In this document: piece after piece, positions 1 through 9,786 of the stretch | Position numbering within the stretch: position 1 is the stretch's first letter | How the letters are laid out: every line of letters begins with the position of its first letter | Source: Elusimicrobium minutum | GTDB taxonomy: Bacteria; Elusimicrobiota; Elusimicrobia; Elusimicrobiales; UBA9959 | DNA length: 52,215 nt | Direction: 5' to 3' | Assembly (NCBI GenBank): GCA_020723765.1 | Contig: DYIF01000008.1 | Location: 1-52,215, forward strand | Program-made: the position numbers and the translations under genes | Notes under the pieces: generated by a model | Databases searched by the model: none | What the model was told of the DNA's origin: nothing | The model's input: only the letters and a program-made list of their open reading frames with translations

Positions 1-68
1 TCCCTTATATCTTACTACTATCATATTTTTACACACTTTATTATACATAACCGATTTGATTCGCCATC

Positions 69-97
69 TTGACAAGTTTTGAAAATTATGCTATAAT
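69..97 (+). promoter_or_regulatory. Consensus sigma-70-type promoter for the leader RNA
   Basis: A perfect -35 TTGACA (69-74) and perfect -10 TATAAT (92-97) are separated by 17 nt. Transcription should begin near 104, immediately before the first hairpin of the structured RNA. This is the best promoter match I found in the window, which implies strong constitutive initiation with control exerted downstream. Confidence 0.9.
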
Positions 98-103
98 GAA
101 TAT

Positions 104-299
104 ATCCTACTTTTAAAGCAGGTTTGTTCTCTAAAGGCGATTTGCCGACTTGAAGAGCCTTAAATCTTCTAAGCGGGGTTCCCATAGTACCAAAACTATG
201 GAGGCGATTTGCTGTCTTGAAGGGCCTTAAACCTTCTAAGCGGGGTAGTCGGTACCATAACCGATGAAAAGATAACCCGCTTTGATGGCGGGTTTTTTT
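104..299 (+). ncRNA. Structured leader RNA with two copies of a pseudoknot-forming motif; candidate riboswitch
   Basis: Two 44-nt copies (135-178 and 202-245, period 67 nt) are nearly identical. In each, a 5-bp hairpin has loop GCCUUAAA. The stem is GAAGA/UCUUC in copy 1 and GAAGG/CCUUC in copy 2, a compensatory change. The loop GCCUU can pair with the upstream AAGGC (134-138), or GAGGC (201-205) in copy 2 with one wobble, giving a conserved pseudoknot. Each copy ends in AAGCGGGG and is followed by a small hairpin (182-201; 249-263). The AAGCGGG of copy 2 can pair with CCCGCTT (276-282), the 5' arm of the terminator, so mutually exclusive anti-terminator and terminator forms are possible. I do not recognise a known class. 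It does not match SAM-I, SAM-II, SAM-III or SAH consensus cores, although metK lies downstream. It could instead be a free-standing small RNA of about 195 nt. Confidence 0.7.
274..299 (+). terminator. Intrinsic terminator ending the leader RNA
   Basis: A 7-bp stem AACCCGC (274-280)/GCGGGTT (288-294) with a 7-nt loop runs directly into a T tract. Its 5' arm is also complementary to the AAGCGGG ends of the upstream motifs and to AAAGCGGGT at 321-329. This is what a conditional attenuator would look like. Confidence 0.85.
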
Positions 300-398
300 A
301 TTTTGTATTAAACTTGCCTCAAAGCGGGTATCGATTATTCAACTTTCCCTTCATAAATAGCACAGCAAATCTTAATTCAATCCGATAAAGGAGGTTGT

Positions 399-1016
399 AT
401 GACTAATTATGGCGGAAGTTATATTGTAGTATCTCCAATGGCTTGTGTTTATATAAGAGTATCGGCTTTGGGCGCAACTTTCGAAGACAAAATAAAATAT
501 GCGATCAAATTGAGAAAAGAAAAATATGATTATGAACGGGACTTGACCTTGGTATATAATGGTGAAAAAGAGCAATATCGAATTAGCAAGGATGGAAAAA
601 TTTCAATACAAGAGTTTAATGAATATTACTTTTGGCTATATAGAGACGATATTTCTGAGGATAAACTCAGAGTGTTTTTAACACCTGATGAACTTTTTAA
701 AATAAGGCAAAAATTAATTGAAATGGATAAAGAAGAACAGATAACCTTCTTGAATGAAATGGTTGAAAAAAACAGAATTATAAAAAATATAAAAATAAGC
801 GATAACTATTATATTTACGAATATCCGCCATTGGGTTATTTTAGAACTTATTTGGTGGATTATGATTTTAAAAAAGCAAAAAGATGTATTATGGATGTTT
901 TCGAAGTTATACTTATTAAAAAAGAATTATGGTTAGTTTTTGACGGAAAAAAATATTTTTTAGGAGAAGATAAAATTTTAAAAGAAGTAGATTCGGTACC
1001 GGAAACAAAAAATTAG
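399..1016 (+). CDS. Hypothetical protein, first gene of the MetK/AAA/VWA operon
   Basis: This 205-residue protein has a strong ribosome-binding site (AAAGGAGG, 388-395) and ends 8 nt before metK, so it opens the operon behind the leader RNA. I recognise no family. It has no signal peptide or membrane segment and is rich in Lys, Glu, Tyr and Ile, suggesting a soluble cytoplasmic protein. The N-terminus (MTNYGGSYIVVSPM) is Gly/Ser/hydrophobic; the middle looks helical and charged; the last 60 residues look like beta strands. About 98 nt separate the terminator from the start codon. They include a third AAAGCGGGT tract that could pair with the terminator arm. Function cannot be given. Confidence 0.75.
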   Translation: MTNYGGSYIVVSPMACVYIRVSALGATFEDKIKYAIKLRKEKYDYERDLTLVYNGEKEQYRISKDGKISIQEFNEYYFWLYRDDISEDKLRVFLTPDELFKIRQKLIEMDKEEQITFLNEMVEKNRIIKNIKISDNYYIYEYPPLGYFRTYLVDYDFKKAKRCIMDVFEVILIKKELWLVFDGKKYFLGEDKILKEVDSVPETKN

Positions 1017-1024
1017 GAGGGAAA

Positions 1025-2167
1025 ATGATAATAAAAAATAGTTTATTTACATCCGAATCCGTTTCCGAAGGCCATCCCGACAAGCTCTGCGATAGGATAT
1101 CGGATATTATTTTGGATATGTATCTTTTAAAAGACCCTTATGCGAGGGTAGCCTGCGAGACTATGGCTTCTCATAATAAAATAATGGTCAGCGCCGAAAT
1201 AAAATCGGATTTTAATTATAAAAAAGAAGAGATAATACAAGTAGTTAAAAAAACCATATCGGATACGGGTTATAACTCAAAATGGAATTACGACCCCGAA
1301 AAAATTGAATATGAAATAAACTTAAATATTCAATCTCCATGTATCTCAAAAGGCGTGGATAACGGAGGGGCCGGAGACCAAGGCATTATGTTCGGCTACG
1401 CCACGGACGAGACGAAGGAGCATATGCCGTTTCCAATAATTTATGCGCATAAGATTCTAATAAGATATGCCGAATTAATGAAAAACGGAGTTTTGAAAAA
1501 TGTAGGCCCGGACGCAAAGAGCCAGATAACCGTGTTTTACGACAAAAACGGTTTTCCCAAAAAAATAATTTCGGTAGTTTTGTCGGTTCAGCATAATAAA
1601 AAAGTGATGAAAGGGAAAAATATTTCGGATGAGTTTAAGCGAGAGTTGATAGAAAAAGCGATTAAACCGGTCTTAGGGGAATATATGAATAACTTAAAAT
1701 ATGAAAACATATTTATAAATCCCGCCGGTTCTTTTTTAATAGGAGGGCCGGCGGCGGATACCGGAGTTACCGGGAGAAAAATAATAGCGGATACTTACGG
1801 GGGGATGTCTCCGCATGGAGGCGGAGCTTTTTCCGGGAAGGACCCGACAAAGGTCGATCGTTCCGCCGCCTATATGGCGAGGTTTGTCGCTAAAAATCTG
1901 GTGAGGGAGGGGCTTTGCAAAAAATGTCTTATACAGGTTTCTTACGCCATAGGAGTGGAAAGGCCCGTATCTATCATGGTTAATTCTTTTGGAACTTCAA
2001 AGACGGGCGACGAGAAACTTCTAAAAATAATAAACGAAAAATTCGATTTTAGACCCAAAGCCATAATCGATTTTTTGGATCTTAGAAAACCGATATATTA
2101 TCAAACCGCCGCTTACGGTCATTTTGGAAGAAATGGTTTTAGTTGGGAGAAAGAATTTAATTTTTAA
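1025..2167 (+). CDS. metK: S-adenosylmethionine synthetase (methionine adenosyltransferase)
   Basis: MetK makes S-adenosylmethionine from methionine and ATP in the cytoplasm. The 380-residue length matches the family (about 384). Canonical motifs are present: SEGHPDK at about 14-20, the GAGDQGIMFGYA signature at 115-126, GPDAKSQ, TGRK at 249-252, the DTYGG segment, and GGGAFSGKDPTKVDRSAAY with both lysines intact. I expect an active enzyme. It starts at ATG 1025 behind TTAGGAGGG, 8 nt after the upstream gene and 10 nt before the AAA+ ATPase. It is the orthodox partner of the divergent MetK-like protein at 7008-8084. I cannot tell whether it is the only MetK of the cell or a second copy dedicated to this operon. 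Confidence 0.95.
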   Translation: MIIKNSLFTSESVSEGHPDKLCDRISDIILDMYLLKDPYARVACETMASHNKIMVSAEIKSDFNYKKEEIIQVVKKTISDTGYNSKWNYDPEKIEYEINLNIQSPCISKGVDNGGAGDQGIMFGYATDETKEHMPFPIIYAHKILIRYAELMKNGVLKNVGPDAKSQITVFYDKNGFPKKIISVVLSVQHNKKVMKGKNISDEFKRELIEKAIKPVLGEYMNNLKYENIFINPAGSFLIGGPAADTGVTGRKIIADTYGGMSPHGGGAFSGKDPTKVDRSAAYMARFVAKNLVREGLCKKCLIQVSYAIGVERPVSIMVNSFGTSKTGDEKLLKIINEKFDFRPKAIIDFLDLRKPIYYQTAAYGHFGRNGFSWEKEFNF

Positions 2168-2177
2168 TGGAGGGATT

Positions 2178-3491
2178 ATGAATAGGAATTTTATCAATAA
2201 ATATAGAAGAGCGAAAATGGAAGATTTTATAATACCTGCAAATGGACAAAACGACGACCGCGGCGTCTTTAAATACTCAATGCCGGTAAACGCCCATATT
2301 TTTGAGTTTTTAAAAACATATCTTTACGGGATACATAAAAAAGTTTTAAAAAACGAAGAACTGGAAGTTTTGTTTTTTCATGCTTTAAAAAACGATATTG
2401 CGCCAGTAATATCCCAATATACCATATCTTACGAGGACGAAAATGGGCTTGCTAAAATAGACGATTGGTTTATCCACTCCAAAATTAAATACAAAAACGA
2501 AAATTATTTTATAAGCCTGGTGATTGTCAAAGATATGGACCGGATAATTTACAATTTTAATGTTCTCGGAGAATCTTTATCCGACGTAAATCCCAAAAAA
2601 TTAGCCGAAGTTTTGATAGAAGAGTCAATAAAAAACTCTATTTATAACGGGAAAATATTAAAGTTGATATCTAAACCGAGAAGTTTTATGCCCGATTTGG
2701 ACGAAGAATCTCCGGACAGTCTTGAGTTTGAAATAATAAAAAGTTTAAACAATACCGCGATGGAGGATATAATTTTGCCTCAAGAGATAAAAGAAAAATT
2801 AAATATTTTCGTAAAAGCGGTATTGAGATATAACGAGATAAGAAAGCCTTTAAGATATATTCTTTCAGGGCTTCCCGGAAGCGGTAAAACTAAGATAGTG
2901 AAAGGCATAGCCAACGCCTGCGCGGGAAAGGCTACGATAATTCTTACTAACGCCGGGAACCTCCCTTTAAACATGCTTTTTTCGTTTGCAAATATGTTTG
3001 AACCTTGCATAATATGCATAGACGATTTGGACATAGCCATTAGAGAAAGACACGAAACTCATCCTCGCATGCTGTCCTCGTTTTTGGAACATTTGGACGG
3101 TTTTATAAAAAACAACGTTTTTTTGCTCGCCACCGTTAATAATAAAAGAATATTGGATTTTGCGGCAAGCAGGCCCGGAAGATTCGATTATATAATAGAC
3201 CTTGAAACTCTTACCAAAAAAGATTACTTTGAGATAGTAAAATTAAATACGAAAGACGAAAAGATTTTAGAGTTGTTTAAAAACGACGATGTGCTCGATG
3301 CCTTGGTCGCCAAAAAAGCCGTCGGGGCGTTTTTGGTTAATTTAATAAAACAAATAGAGCTTATAAAAAAACTTAACTCCGGTGCCGATTTTTCCGCCAA
3401 AGATCTTTTAAATCTAATCAAACAAAACTATGAAAGCTTTTATAAAGACAAAGGTAAATCGGATATCGGGTTTTATTCGGAGGATTTATGA
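2178..3491 (+). CDS. AAA+ family ATPase (classical AAA type)
   Basis: This protein of about 437 residues has an uncharacterised N-terminal half (about 1-200) followed by one AAA module. Visible motifs are Walker A GLPGSGKT (K237), Walker B CIICIDDLD (D282/D283), sensor-1-like LLATVNN, and an arginine-finger segment SRPGRFD near 330. The last is typical of the classical AAA clade (Cdc48/FtsH/proteasomal type), so it probably forms a hexameric remodelling ring. I chose ATG 2178 because GGAGGG (2169-2174) precedes it; a longer reading from 2124 overlaps metK and lacks a ribosome-binding site. It overlaps the MoxR-like gene by 4 nt (ATGA), so the two ATPases are translationally coupled. The substrate is unknown. 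Confidence 0.88.
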   Translation: MNRNFINKYRRAKMEDFIIPANGQNDDRGVFKYSMPVNAHIFEFLKTYLYGIHKKVLKNEELEVLFFHALKNDIAPVISQYTISYEDENGLAKIDDWFIHSKIKYKNENYFISLVIVKDMDRIIYNFNVLGESLSDVNPKKLAEVLIEESIKNSIYNGKILKLISKPRSFMPDLDEESPDSLEFEIIKSLNNTAMEDIILPQEIKEKLNIFVKAVLRYNEIRKPLRYILSGLPGSGKTKIVKGIANACAGKATIILTNAGNLPLNMLFSFANMFEPCIICIDDLDIAIRERHETHPRMLSSFLEHLDGFIKNNVFLLATVNNKRILDFAASRPGRFDYIIDLETLTKKDYFEIVKLNTKDEKILELFKNDDVLDALVAKKAVGAFLVNLIKQIELIKKLNSGADFSAKDLLNLIKQNYESFYKDKGKSDIGFYSEDL

Positions 3492-4921
3492 GCGGCCAAG
3501 ATTTAATCTTAGAAAACAAAAATCTAATCGAATCGGATAAACTTGACGGGACAAACTACGAATACAAAGGTTTTGCCCGATCGCTTGGAATTTTCGGCTA
3601 CGAAAATATAGAGACGCTTTTAATTATAGGCTTAATAACTCAAGACCCTTTGATTTTAATAGGGGATATGGGAAGCGGTAAAACCCATATTTTAAATAAC
3701 ATTTCAAAACTTTTGGGATTAAATCATAAACATTATAACGCTTCTATGATATCCTTTGACGACATAGTAGGTTTCCCATACCCTTTTAAAAATGGAGGCG
3801 AAAATAAAATGAAAATAGAATACATAATGACCCCGGCAACGGTATGGGACGCCGAGTCGGTTTTAATAGACGAGATAAACAGATGCAAGCCCGAAGTCCA
3901 AAACAAACTTTTTTCGTTGATATATGAAAAAAAACTTCAAGGAATAGAAATAAGGAAACTCGTATACAGATGGTCGGCTATGAACCCTTACAGAAAAGAC
4001 GAAGATGAAAATGTTTATTTGGGGGTCGAGCCGTTGGATAAAGCTCTTGCGGATAGATTTTCTCTTTTTATACAAGTTCCCAAGTGGAGCGGAATAAACG
4101 AAAACACTAAACGTGAGATATTAAAAAATATGATCGAACCGGATATAAAAGCTTCCAATAATTTTATAGATTTTATAAATAAAAAAAGAGAGGAATTTCA
4201 AAACATTCTCCAAAAACCGCCTTTGAGTTTAATTAATTATATAGCGGAATTTTCAAAATTGGCAAATGATGCTAAGATTATGGAGATATCTGTAAGACGA
4301 GCGAAGATAATAATGAAAAACATATCCGCATTATTGGCTTTAACTCCAAACCCATGGGATGAGGATGTGTATAATGTTTTCAAAAGTTCCATACCGGATA
4401 TCTGCTGGAACGACGACATAAAATGGGATAAGCTTAATTTGATTCATAAAAGCGTTTATCAATTCAATAGAATCGAGTTATTCAAGGATAACGATATGGA
4501 AAACTTTATGGAGGCAAAGGGTTATATAGAAAAGGCGAATATGCTTATAAATCTAAAATCTAAAGAGAAAAGGTCTTTAATAGTAAAATGGGCGGTTATA
4601 AAAGCTAAAGAAGGCGATTACGATTATTTCATATTTATTTATCTTATATTTTCGCTTGTTATGAAAGGAGTAATTTCTCTAAATGCCGATGCCTGCGAAG
4701 AGTTTTTCGGATATATGAAAAATATCTCTTCTTCGGTTAATATGCAAAAGAAGGTGGAGTTAAAATGCGATTCCGAGATAATAGAAATAATATCCGAAAA
4801 TAAGTTTTTAAAAGATTTCTTTATATCTTTTTTAAATTGCGATAAAAACCAAGACGAATCGATTGAAATACTTAAAAAAATGAAAGAGTTTATAGATTAT
4901 TTTAAAAAGGAGGGGTTATGA
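3488..4921 (+). CDS. MoxR-like AAA+ ATPase
   Basis: At 477 residues this is longer than a minimal MoxR (about 330). Walker A is GDMGSGKTH (K65) and Walker B is VLIDEINR (D128/E129), followed by a PEVQNKLFSL segment and a sensor/finger region WSAMNPYRKD...LDKALADRFSLFI. These are MoxR/dynein-related AAA_5 features. MoxR ATPases typically act with a VWA-domain partner to remodel or activate target proteins. Here the likely partner is the metallopeptidase-VWA protein two genes downstream. The C-terminal 200 residues are helical and not recognised. The gene overlaps both neighbours by 4 nt (ATGA at each end), indicating strict co-translation. Confidence 0.9.
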   Translation: MSGQDLILENKNLIESDKLDGTNYEYKGFARSLGIFGYENIETLLIIGLITQDPLILIGDMGSGKTHILNNISKLLGLNHKHYNASMISFDDIVGFPYPFKNGGENKMKIEYIMTPATVWDAESVLIDEINRCKPEVQNKLFSLIYEKKLQGIEIRKLVYRWSAMNPYRKDEDENVYLGVEPLDKALADRFSLFIQVPKWSGINENTKREILKNMIEPDIKASNNFIDFINKKREEFQNILQKPPLSLINYIAEFSKLANDAKIMEISVRRAKIIMKNISALLALTPNPWDEDVYNVFKSSIPDICWNDDIKWDKLNLIHKSVYQFNRIELFKDNDMENFMEAKGYIEKANMLINLKSKEKRSLIVKWAVIKAKEGDYDYFIFIYLIFSLVMKGVISLNADACEEFFGYMKNISSSVNMQKKVELKCDSEIIEIISENKFLKDFFISFLNCDKNQDESIEILKKMKEFIDYFKKEGL

Positions 4922-5493
4922 AAATGTATTATAACAATACCGGCGGACCGATGAGTAGAAATGTTACTATGAGAAACTATACTACAAAACCGAAAGAAGA
5001 GAAAGACACGGAAAATTTGAATAAGATAATAGAAAGGTATGAAGAACAACATAAATCTTTTATAAAACTAAACTCAAACGCTAACGAATCGGAACAACCC
5101 GCCGTTAATGAGGTCGATAAAAAAACCGTTAACATAAACTTTGAAAATTTTGGTTTCAAAGCGGTTTACGAAACTAACTTTTGTTTCGCAGATAATGAAA
5201 ATGTAGTGGATTATATTTATAATATTATGAAATCTTGCAAAGTAAACGATGAAGAAAAATTGAAAAAAAAATTTTTGGTATTTAAAAAAAAGTTGATATG
5301 CGTTACTATGCCTATAATCGAGAACAAAGATAAGGTTTTTATCGATAAAGATGAGATATTAAAAGACGCGGTTATTCTCGGTTTATGCGGGGAACATATT
5401 TACGACCCCGAAAGGCCTTTAATACTAACCGAAGCAAACCTAAAAAGAAAAGTCATATTATATGAACCGAGAGGTTTTTATGACTATATCTGA
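4918..5493 (+). CDS. Hypothetical protein between MoxR ATPase and VWA protein
   Basis: The 191-residue product has no recognised domain. The first 75 residues are polar and probably disordered. The remainder (about 77-191) looks folded, with alternating strands and helices and a tail EPRGFYDYI. No signal peptide or membrane segment is seen. Start 4918 lies behind AGGAGGGG and overlaps the MoxR stop by 4 nt; the 3' end overlaps the VWA gene by 14 nt. By position it may be an adaptor or substrate of the MoxR-VWA pair, but that is inference only. Confidence 0.75.
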   Translation: MKMYYNNTGGPMSRNVTMRNYTTKPKEEKDTENLNKIIERYEEQHKSFIKLNSNANESEQPAVNEVDKKTVNINFENFGFKAVYETNFCFADNENVVDYIYNIMKSCKVNDEEKLKKKFLVFKKKLICVTMPIIENKDKVFIDKDEILKDAVILGLCGEHIYDPERPLILTEANLKRKVILYEPRGFYDYI

Positions 5494-6997
5494 AAATCAG
5501 TTTAGAAACATATTTAAGAAAGTCGTATTTGAAAATAGGTTGAATTTTGAATCTTATCTAAAAATATACGATATAGTTTTCGACAAAAGCGTTGAAAATA
5601 TAGGTATAAGCATTGGAGACAAACCGATATTAAAAGTAAATTTGGATTATGTCAATGAGTTTTTTAAAACGGAAAAAGACGTTGAATGGCTTATATCTCA
5701 CGAGCTTCTTCATATTCTTTTTAGAGATTATCTTAAAAAACCTAAAGACGAAAACGAGAGGTTTATTAATAATATATCCATGGACGCCTTAATAAACTCA
5801 TATTTATATTGGTTATTAGGCAAAGATTATTGCAACGGCGTTAATAAATTATATGAAAACGAAGAGGAGATATTTCAAATTTTAAGGCCTTATGACAAAA
5901 AAAACAATAAAGTATCCAATAATGCTTTGAAAAAAATTTGGTCGAGTTTGTATAAAGGAAAAATCGGCTTTTCCGATATAAAAAGTTATTTATTATCGAT
6001 TTATAAAGAAAACCAAAATAATAGCAACGACAAATTTATAGGCACTCACTCTTCGGACAACGCCTCTTTAGAATCCAAGACCCAAGCGAACGAATCGTTA
6101 GCCAGCGATTTTTCAAATTCTCAAAGAAATTCCGATAATTGCGATAATCAAAATTCTCGGGATAAACAAAATCAAAACAAAGAATCAAAAGATTGCCAAA
6201 ATATAACCCGAAATAAAATATCCGATTTAAAAGATTATCGGAATATTATAAATGAATTAGAAAAAAAGATAAAAGAAACCATAAGCCAAAGTAAAAATTC
6301 CAAAATCTCAAATGCCAATTCAAAAAATAGCTTAAAATCGCAGGCGCTTAAAAGCGATAAAACAGAGGATGATGAGATGGATATTGTTTTTAAAGATATT
6401 GAGAAGGATTATATAAAGATATGGCGTAAAGCGATATATACCGTTCTTAAAATGTTCTCAAAATCCGAAAAATCAAAAAGAAAAAGCAACCCCGGCGAGT
6501 TTGAATTTTTTATGCCTATTCTTTCCAAAAGAGACGGAAGGTCTTTTGTTAAATATTTATGGTCCCCTTTTTTTCCGTTTTCAAAATGGATCGGGGAGAA
6601 AAACAATTTCGACATAAAAACCGCTTTATACTTTGACGTTTCCCCTTCAATGAGCGGAGAGTTGGATTTTTTGGCAAAGGCTTTACAAAGTTTTAAAGAT
6701 GTTTTTAAAACCGATTTGTGGGCTTTTAGCACTCAAGTCCATAAGGCGGAAATGAAAAAAGGAAAGTTTAAATTTAAAAAAACATACGGAACCCGCATAG
6801 AGGCGGTTTTTAAACATATAATCGATAAAAACTACCGCAAAGCGGTTGTTGTAACCGACGGATTTATAGAAGAGAATTTGCACGAACTCGTATTGAAATT
6901 AAAAAAGAAAGCATCGGTCGGTTTTATAATATCCAAAGATGGAGACGAACGTGCGGTAAAAGATTACGGCTTTTATTATAAAAAATTAAAATGGTAA
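5480..6997 (+). CDS. Putative metallopeptidase with C-terminal VWA-like domain (DUF2201 type)
   Basis: The protein is about 505 residues. The N-terminal domain has a zinc-protease motif HELLH (H74-H78), followed by a conserved-looking N/D segment (NISMDALINSYL). Residues about 180-300 form an Asn/Ser/Gln/Lys-rich, probably disordered linker. The C-terminal domain has a VWA MIDAS motif DVSPSMSG (D386) and a second VWA strand VVVTDGF (D460). This two-part layout matches the putative metallopeptidase plus VWA-like (DUF2201) family, which is commonly encoded beside MoxR ATPases, as here. ATG 5480 is preferred (GAGAGG just upstream) over an in-frame ATG at 5462. It likely serves as the metal-binding adaptor and possibly the protease of the module. 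Confidence 0.85.
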   Translation: MTISENQFRNIFKKVVFENRLNFESYLKIYDIVFDKSVENIGISIGDKPILKVNLDYVNEFFKTEKDVEWLISHELLHILFRDYLKKPKDENERFINNISMDALINSYLYWLLGKDYCNGVNKLYENEEEIFQILRPYDKKNNKVSNNALKKIWSSLYKGKIGFSDIKSYLLSIYKENQNNSNDKFIGTHSSDNASLESKTQANESLASDFSNSQRNSDNCDNQNSRDKQNQNKESKDCQNITRNKISDLKDYRNIINELEKKIKETISQSKNSKISNANSKNSLKSQALKSDKTEDDEMDIVFKDIEKDYIKIWRKAIYTVLKMFSKSEKSKRKSNPGEFEFFMPILSKRDGRSFVKYLWSPFFPFSKWIGEKNNFDIKTALYFDVSPSMSGELDFLAKALQSFKDVFKTDLWAFSTQVHKAEMKKGKFKFKKTYGTRIEAVFKHIIDKNYRKAVVVTDGFIEENLHELVLKLKKKASVGFIISKDGDERAVKDYGFYYKKLKW

Positions 6998-7007
6998 GGG
7001 AGGAGTT

Positions 7008-8084
7008 ATGATAAGAGTATCGGAGAGCGTTTTGCCCGGGCATCCCGACAAATTTTGCGACCAAATAGCGGATGAGATAGTAAATAGAGTTTGCGCTTTC
7101 GAAGAAGAAGCCTATGCTCAGATAGAAGTCGGCGTATGGTCCGATGAGATGTATATAAATGGGACGATTTTGACGTCTCAAAAAATAGAGATAGATTTTA
7201 AGGATGTGGTCCGATATGTGGGAGATAGAATAGGTTATGTAGAAAACAATCATATAGACGCCTCGAAATATAAAATAAGAGATTATGTTTGCAGGCTAAA
7301 TATGAAAGATCCGACATTTTGGAGCAGATATGTTAACGACCAAAGCGTAGTAATAGGCTGGGCCGGTTATGACGAAAAAACTTCTTATCTTCCGCCGGAG
7401 CATTTTTTATCGCTTTACTTAAAAGACGAGGTTTTTAAAAGCTGTCTTTTCGGATATATGAAAGGTTTGGGCCCGGACGGAAAAATAATTGTCATAGTGG
7501 AAGAAAAAGACAAAAAGTTTTTATTAAAAGAGGTTCTTTTGACGATAATGCATCCGTCCAAAGTAAATATATCAGAAGTGGTATCCGTTTCAATTAAAAC
7601 GCTTAATCAAGCTTATATTAAACTTAAGGAATACGACTCAAGATGGGCATCCGAAATAAATCAAATAACATTTAAAGTTAATCCGAACGGAGAATTTACA
7701 AACGGAGGAAGCAACGGAGATAACGGCCAGACCGGGAGAAAACTTGTAATGGATTATTACGGGCCGAGAATCCCGATAGGAGGAGGGGCGTTGTCCGGAA
7801 AAATAATCGGCCATATAGACAGAGTCGCGGCTTATGCCGCAAGGCATGCCGCGGTAAAAGCCGTTAAATCGGGGGCCGGGGAGTGCCTTGTAAGGTTGGC
7901 TTATGCCCCGAATGTTAATTTGCCTTTAAATGTTTTATATGAAATGAAAAACGAGGTTAAAACCGAGGGTATTGATTTTTTCGATTATAGAAATATGGTA
8001 AAAATATACTCGCCCAAACACATAACTTCCGAACGAGCTCAAGGGAAATATTTTTTCGACCTCTCTCTCCCCTGGAATGGATGA
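7008..8084 (+). CDS. Divergent S-adenosylmethionine synthetase paralogue
   Basis: The 358-residue protein is clearly MetK-like, with PGHPDK (11-15), TGRK (242-245), and GGGALSGK (K265) followed by HIDR (D271). It has diverged in the substrate region. The GAGDQG signature is replaced by VNDQSVVIGWA (D111/Q112 kept). GPDAKSQ is replaced by GPDGKII (D157, K159 kept). The position of the second conserved lysine (K269 in E. coli numbering) is His. Most ATP and phosphate contacts survive, so catalysis is possible, perhaps with a different methionine-like or nucleotide substrate, or as a partner subunit of the canonical MetK. It closes the operon 10 nt after the VWA gene, behind GGGAGGAG. A shorter length and altered flexible loop distinguish it from housekeeping MetK. 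Confidence 0.88.
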   Translation: MIRVSESVLPGHPDKFCDQIADEIVNRVCAFEEEAYAQIEVGVWSDEMYINGTILTSQKIEIDFKDVVRYVGDRIGYVENNHIDASKYKIRDYVCRLNMKDPTFWSRYVNDQSVVIGWAGYDEKTSYLPPEHFLSLYLKDEVFKSCLFGYMKGLGPDGKIIVIVEEKDKKFLLKEVLLTIMHPSKVNISEVVSVSIKTLNQAYIKLKEYDSRWASEINQITFKVNPNGEFTNGGSNGDNGQTGRKLVMDYYGPRIPIGGGALSGKIIGHIDRVAAYAARHAAVKAVKSGAGECLVRLAYAPNVNLPLNVLYEMKNEVKTEGIDFFDYRNMVKIYSPKHITSERAQGKYFFDLSLPWNG

Positions 8085-9399: not shown

Positions 9400-9600
9400 A
9401 TGGAATCTAAAAAATATTTCTATCTTTCGGATAACAAAAAAATCGCCGGAGTATGCGCCGGCATATCAGAATATTTCAATATTGACGTTACTTTAGTCAG
9501 AATTATATTTATAGCTTTTTTATTTTCCGGAGTTTTGAGCGGTTTTATTTTGATTGTGTATTTCGCTCTCTGGGTTTCGGCCCCGAAAAAGCCGGTTTAG
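9400..9600 (+). CDS. PspC domain protein
   Basis: This 66-residue protein consists of one PspC domain: an N-terminal KKIAGVCAGISEYFNIDVTL segment, a hydrophobic stretch of about 35 residues (VRIIFIAFLF...VYFALWV), and a short tail. PspC-type proteins are small inner-membrane proteins linked to envelope stress. I choose ATG 9400; an in-frame GTG at 9385 overlaps the preceding stop. TATAAT (9388-9393) lies 6 nt before the ATG and no Shine-Dalgarno sequence is present, so the mRNA may be leaderless. Confidence 0.85.
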   Translation: MESKKYFYLSDNKKIAGVCAGISEYFNIDVTLVRIIFIAFLFSGVLSGFILIVYFALWVSAPKKPV

Positions 9601-9609
9601 TTTTTTAGT

Positions 9610-9786
9610 TTCGTATGAGGGAAGTCGGGTTAAATTCCCGCGCTGCCCCGCAACGGTAAAGCCTTTTGTATAAAAGGACAAGCCCGGTCTATCATACGAA
9701 ATTTATCCTTCGAGGGAAGGTTTATAAAAGCATGTCCATTTTGCTGTCTTTCCTCGAAGCATTTATTAAAAAACCTCGAGGGAGGA
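9610..9786 (+). promoter_or_regulatory. Cobalamin riboswitch with translational expression platform
   Basis: The aptamer spans 9610-9700. P1 is TTCGTATGA/TCATACGAA. It contains the typical core GAAGTC, GCTGCCCCGCAACGGTAA and the B12 box around ACAAGCCCGG. The aptamer is short, with reduced peripheral stems. Downstream, CTTCGAGG (9708-9715) pairs perfectly with CCTCGAAG (9752-9759). The latter can alternatively pair with CGAGGGA overlapping the ribosome-binding site (9777-9786). This supports control of translation of the adjacent receptor: bound cobalamin should lower its expression. Confidence 0.9.

Follow-up and report, generated by a model that had tools for sequence, protein, structure and literature searches.

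Among described SAM riboswitches, SAM-V and SAM-II are the closest in build to the leader analysed here. SAM-V (RF01826; Rfam consensus GGCAuUUGAACuGUA) folds as an H-type pseudoknot in which the third-strand residues U8-U9-U10 meet the groove of P2, the U20:A48.U9 triple faces the sulfonium, the bulged U47 binds the adenine, and A50, which is paired to A18 and matters for recognition, binds the amino-acid end of SAM (PMC6061858). It binds SAM, rejects SAH and is hosted by SAR11 and marine bacteria. Despite a common core, SAM-V was set apart from SAM-II (RF00521, RF01726) since the two sort independently (PMC2704228), and many SAM-II aptamers precede terminators (PMC9373788). SAM-II is usually found in Proteobacteria upstream of metA, metX or metZ, whereas the leader described here precedes metK in Elusimicrobia. 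SAM-VI and SAM-III share with it the position in metK leaders and OFF control by SAM (here proposed), but are junction folds with translational control and have no sequence or Rfam match at this locus.

The window analysed comprises 52,215 nt of Elusimicrobium minutum and begins at an end of contig G000:C1 of the source genome (G000, 2.1 Mb). Judged from its sequence, the leader near this contig end probably represents a SAM-sensing OFF riboswitch upstream of an extra copy of metK, with tandem aptamers acting on one terminator, a reading to which we assign a probability of about two in three. A candidate riboswitch had been proposed in a preliminary description of this DNA, and the comparisons with Rfam, with homologues and by covariation reported below support that proposal. 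A sigma-70 promoter (TTGACA-17-TATAAT, 69-97, on the forward strand as are all leader features and the first two genes), which is absent from the preliminary description, agrees with the consensus at 12 of 12 positions, with a TG preceding the -10 element, and predicts a transcription start at approximately position 104. The predicted transcript begins with a 205 aa open reading frame (399-1016) lacking a match in the family search, followed as second gene by the metK (methionine adenosyltransferase, 1025-2167) that had been noted downstream. This putative regulated gene passes the NCBI equivalog cut-off (TIGR01034, 475 bits vs a cut-off of 309).

The leader contains two direct repeats of 45 nt (135-179 and 202-246) with 91% identity and a spacing of 67 nt, initially described as near-identical motifs of 44 nt. 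The 21-nt core pattern (up to three mismatches) occurs at only these two sites in the window, compared with 0.01 expected, and searches revealed no further occurrence of the repeat core elsewhere in the G000 genome. Repeat, fold and covariation evidence delimits one aptamer per repeat. In copy 1 (134-176), P1 is formed by AAGGC (134-138) and the hairpin loop GCCUU (157-161), and P2 by GAAGA (152-156) and UCUUC (165-169); L1 is GAUUUGCCGACUU (139-151), L3 is AAA (162-164), U170 is bulged, and in lower P2 CCG.CUU (145-151) is paired with AAGCGG (171-176). In copy 2 (201-243), GAGGC (201-205) pairs with GCCUU (224-228) in P1 and GAAGG (219-223) with CCUUC (232-236) in P2, with L1 GAUUUGCUGUCUU (206-218), L3 at 229-231, the bulged U237 and the tail AAGCGG (238-243). 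Both the compensatory change in the hairpin stem and the pairing of its loop with an upstream segment in each copy had been recognised in the preliminary description and were confirmed. Since the hairpin loop pairs with an upstream segment, each copy folds as an H-type pseudoknot, with additional pairing between A-A-G-C-G-G and the end of L1 (C-Y-G-N-C-U-U). Sequence and fold place a spacer hairpin (CCCATAGT...ACTATGG, 180-200) between the copies; it has no T run, so that copy 1 lacks a terminator of its own. The leader folds more stably than shuffled sequences (z -2.7).

An intrinsic terminator (AACCCGCT-TTGAT-GGCGGGTT and a T run, 274-300) with a hairpin at 274-294 is shared by the two copies. 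The complementarity of its 5' arm CCCGCUU (276-282) to the motif ends, pointed out earlier, was recovered among the inverted repeats detected and makes AAGCGGG of copy 1 (171-177) and of copy 2 (238-244) candidate antiterminator strands. By secondary-structure energies, which leave the pseudoknot out of treatment, both tails pair with the arm at -14.2 kcal/mol vs -12.8 kcal/mol for the terminator; the pairing of the copy 2 strand was equalled by 14 of 1000 shuffles. The predicted fold of 202-287, before the 3' arm of the terminator is made, is the antiterminator. In every leader identified (see below), the tail UAAGCGG finds its best partner further downstream on the terminator 5' arm, with pairing energies of -9.7 to -12.9 kcal/mol across leaders that 0.3 to 18% of shuffles attain. 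As aptamer and antiterminator compete for AAGCGG, ligand binding to the aptamer is expected to favour termination.

The variant is known so far from three or four genomes. Homologues upstream of related metK operons, on which the preliminary description had made its reading depend, are present in at least two relatives of the same Elusimicrobia family, with one copy in G006 and two in G005, and all leaders are located a short distance upstream of the extra metK, each with a following terminator. The G006 copy (Elusimicrobia bacterium, contig JAAYVI010000037.1, L108) was found by BLAST within the family (E 4e-5); it is a single copy ~80 nt before metK with P1 GGGGC/GCCCU, P2 GAUAG/CUAUC, the terminator AAACCCGCUUAUAAAAGCGGGUUU and a promoter matching the consensus at 11 of 12 positions. 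Inspection of the metK leaders of relatives revealed two diverged copies in G005, a member of the same genus as G000, which form two aptamer-terminator units in series (L061:1209-1403) with the same perfect promoter as in G000. Model R2 scores these copies at 38.8-40.8 bits with both in its training set, and thus the match of G005 copy B to model R1 (E 0.058, metK loci tested), built without G005, is the more independent evidence. A diverged version with P1 GGUG/CACC, P2 GUUC/GAAC, the tail UAAAGCGG and the terminator arm CCCGCUUU was found by hand in G058, where the covariance model gives no detection; we accept it as a probable homologue on the grounds that the metK behind it clusters with the others and that its tail complements its own terminator. 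The G058 leader (L062:1245-1320) also contains a possible further aptamer copy directly fused to a terminator (CUAAACGGG-T7).

A phylum-wide search of 341 genomes yielded no real copy beyond those of G000, G006 and G005 and the hand-found G058 leader. Matches to R2 of 20-28 bits, numerous in the sister family, sit in conserved coding DNA and were attributed to chance. A pattern scan of GTDB genome contigs returned 35 matches, with the G006 contig alone being real; L111 and L120 (24-31 bits), which fall within coding ORFs distant from metK, were rejected. No real homologue was identified in viral contigs, and blastn searches of plasmids and phages gave terminator-sized matches only.

Covariation was evaluated for the five clear copies from three genomes (G000, G005 and G006) in a hand-arranged alignment (A4) with the variable loop L3 masked, which was used instead of a MAFFT alignment that misplaced this loop. 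The preliminary description had also looked to covariation for support, and it is strong: 94.9% of cells are paired in the proposed pseudoknot, 7 pairs changed on both sides, and the covariation score of 0.55, compared with 0.17 when shuffled, was reached by 0 of 500 shuffles and fell to 0.16 or less when pairing partners were slid. Covariation extends to each of the five P2 pairs and to two pairs of P1; lower P2, which hardly varies, is supported by conservation only. Among 77 unrelated sites with the same anchor sequences, none had P1 and P2 of at least 4 in this geometry, a test passed by 4 of the 5 family copies, with G005 copy A containing one P2 mismatch. Chance repeats next to an ordinary terminator, devoid of any regulatory role, might have been considered while a single genome had been seen, as for the preliminary description, but this reading is contradicted by the covariation, by homologues at the corresponding position in other genera that carry compensatory changes, and by the absence of the geometry from the chance sites, and its probability is negligible. 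The leader is almost certainly a structured cis-regulatory RNA.

A conserved, structured aptamer 5' of linked genes combined with a competing expression platform is the general hallmark of a riboswitch, and the leader shows this combination; a metabolite riboswitch acting on transcription termination is highly probable. Protein-controlled leaders also show repeated hairpins beside a terminator. Such hairpins adjoin the terminator in this leader as well, and the pseudoknots could in principle be sites for a protein (or respond to a ribosomal or tRNA signal) without involvement of a metabolite. We consider such an attenuator very unlikely, given that the unpaired core (UUG, bulged U, AA) is compact and highly conserved, is enclosed in the pseudoknot and is strictly linked to metK, and that T-box and leader-peptide families in Rfam have no match in the leader of the window.

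The statement in the preliminary description that the sequence fits no known SAM riboswitch class holds with respect to Rfam, in which no riboswitch family matches the leader at gathering level or E<=10 and the only matches are chance, terminator-driven sRNA and leader families. The SAM-V and SAM-II models have no match at E<=10 in window positions 60-400, nor do RF01826 and RF00521 at the loci of the four genomes (G000, G005, G006, G058), and SAM-I (RF00162) has none in the window or in the G000, G005 and G006 genomes. The statement does not extend to the core, which resembles that of SAM-V and SAM-II with a changed methionine-end contact. Elsewhere in the G005 genome, a sequence resembling the 3' half of SAM-II (GCUAAAAAGGCC) was observed at L153:1501-1550 (G005:C25:92057-92106); it scores 20.4 bits against RF00521, a weak match that probably arose by chance.

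Features shared with SAM-V include the H-type pseudoknot with P1 and P2 (both covarying here), the third strand (A)UUUG, the UUG opposite a bulged U and AA, a C-Y-G linker that pairs with the regulatory tail (P2a), an A-rich L3, the association with methionine/SAM genes and a tail that is sequestered when the ligand is bound (here predicted). Between its P1 and P2, the second copy of G005 additionally has an A-run and a hairpin resembling P3, as in SAM-V. When the SAM-V residues U19 U20 G21, bulged U47, A48 and A49 (PMC6061858) are compared with GGCGAUUUGCYGACUUG...CUAAG, and SAM-V is overlaid on GGCGAUUUG--CYGACUUG ... CUAAG, the third strand, C-Y-G linker, UUG, bulged U and AA correspond; U12, U13, U20, U21, U40, A41 and A42 are invariant in 5 of 5 sequences. 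The match of copy 2 to the SAM-V core was beaten by just 2 of 20,000 shuffles, but copy 1 and G006 match less well and the G005 copies, taken alone, do not reach significance, and because of this unevenness we infer the residue mapping as supported, not proven. Scanning for genuine SAM-V examples yielded nothing but coding DNA, and the comparison thus draws on the Rfam consensus and PMC6061858.

In contrast to SAM-V, the A18:A50 contact is replaced by C19-G43, invariant in all five clear copies, the turn is two nt shorter and without A12 A13, and P2 consists of 5 (4) pairs adjoining P1. Furthermore, the short P2a of SAM-V sequesters the Shine-Dalgarno sequence, whereas its analogue here would sequester the predicted antiterminator AAGCGG. 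SAM-II has the topology and the ligand-site U's in common with the leader but differs in sequence outside the core, in the lengths of L3 and P2, and, by the inferred mapping, in its ligand-site A20 and A49 (PMC11508383), which are C and G here. A diverged true member of SAM-II or SAM-V, escaping Rfam models that are too narrow, could explain the common topology, the UUUG third strand, the UUG, bulged U and AA, and the SAM-V-like hairpin and A-run of the second G005 copy. This is doubtful given the missing A:A contact, the shorter L1, the longer P2, the different host phylum and the lack of matches to either model in four genomes. By the standard that separated SAM-V from SAM-II (PMC2704228), the leader would count as an additional class within the SAM-II family, or at the least as a distinct variant, and it is very likely an undescribed switch, related to but distinct from both. 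Only tentatively do we suggest a new class in which the sulfonium and adenine site of SAM-II/V is kept and the methionine-end A:A contact has become C-G, with SAM recognised in a new way or with another sulfonium or adenosyl metabolite as ligand.

The leader is proposed to act in cis as a transcription-terminating OFF riboswitch for the extra metK, in which two aptamers share a single terminator. In each aptamer, P1 would lead into the 13-nt L1, with its UUUG occupying the groove of P2 as third strand, followed by P2 with the bulged U and by the tail AAGCGG pairing with the end of L1. Binding of the ligand, most likely SAM, would close the pseudoknot and hold AAGCGG, allowing the terminator (274-300) to form and transcription to stop. 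When the ligand is scarce, free AAGCGGG would pair with CCCGCUU, blocking the terminator so that metK is transcribed. As either free tail could serve as antiterminator, complete termination may require ligand on both aptamers, and such dual occupancy would sharpen the response. Two like aptamers with one expression platform are also known from tandem glycine and guanidine-II riboswitches (PMC9481103, Table 1), whose aptamers and ligands are unrelated.

All four genomes (G000, G005, G006, G058) encode a second, housekeeping-type metK without the leader, so that part of SAM synthesis would escape feedback acting on the extra copy alone. In the metK tree, a branch with support 100/99 separates the four leader-bearing genes from the housekeeping-type genes, suggesting that leader and gene were inherited together. 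The operon in the window (1025-8084) encodes MetK, an AAA ATPase, a MoxR-type AAA ATPase, a small protein, a metallopeptidase/vWA-like (DUF2201-like) protein and a second, divergent MetK-like protein. The latter (358 aa) is 29% identical to MetK and lacks the GGAG of the VNxGGAGDQG loop; a relative with 51% identity is encoded at the same place in G058, and the G005 operon is conserved without it. None of the defence-system models compared with the operon clearly fits.

The position of the leader upstream of metK and the resemblance to SAM-V suggest that SAM is the likely ligand. As the A50:A18 contact of SAM-V is C19-G43 here, however, affinity or even the ligand could differ, and the same build could bind SAH, methionine, methylthioadenosine, decarboxylated SAM or a SAM-like product instead. 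In favour of this reading, recognition of the aminoacyl group by SAM-V depends on A50 (PMC6061858), spermidine-binding variants of SAM-I are on record that reject SAM (PMC10853860), and the G000 and G058 operons encode the divergent MetK-like protein. A ligand other than SAM is nevertheless unlikely, since every leader stands before metK, the gene for the SAM-producing enzyme, the U-A-U triple that contacts the sulfonium would be retained, and G005 and G006 carry the leader without a homologue of the divergent protein, which also disfavours this gene as ligand source. Returning to SAM, G058 contains a separate SAM-I-like element after metK and before the MoxR-type ATPase gene of the same operon (L219:4452-4557; G058:C73:14451-14556), scoring 31.4 bits (E 4e-5), below the cut-off of 44.4, and probably acting on translation of the ATPase. 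An independent SAM-I-like aptamer in the same operon suggests that SAM is plausibly sensed there and favours it as the signal.

If correct, this reading adds a SAM-sensing RNA from Elusimicrobiota, a phylum from which none was reported in the literature searched, and extends the SAM-II family beyond SAM-II and SAM-V. As a naturally occurring version of the best-studied SAM site of pseudoknot type in which a single key contact has been exchanged, the leader would offer a direct test of SAM vs SAH discrimination and of drift in ligand specificity. The same aptamer occurs in three layouts: G006 has a single copy, G005 has two aptamer-terminator units, and in G000 two aptamers share one terminator.

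Further downstream, the window contains an adenosylcobalamin riboswitch (9596-9723, 62.8 bits) upstream of a TonB-dependent receptor gene, which probably encodes a B12 transporter.
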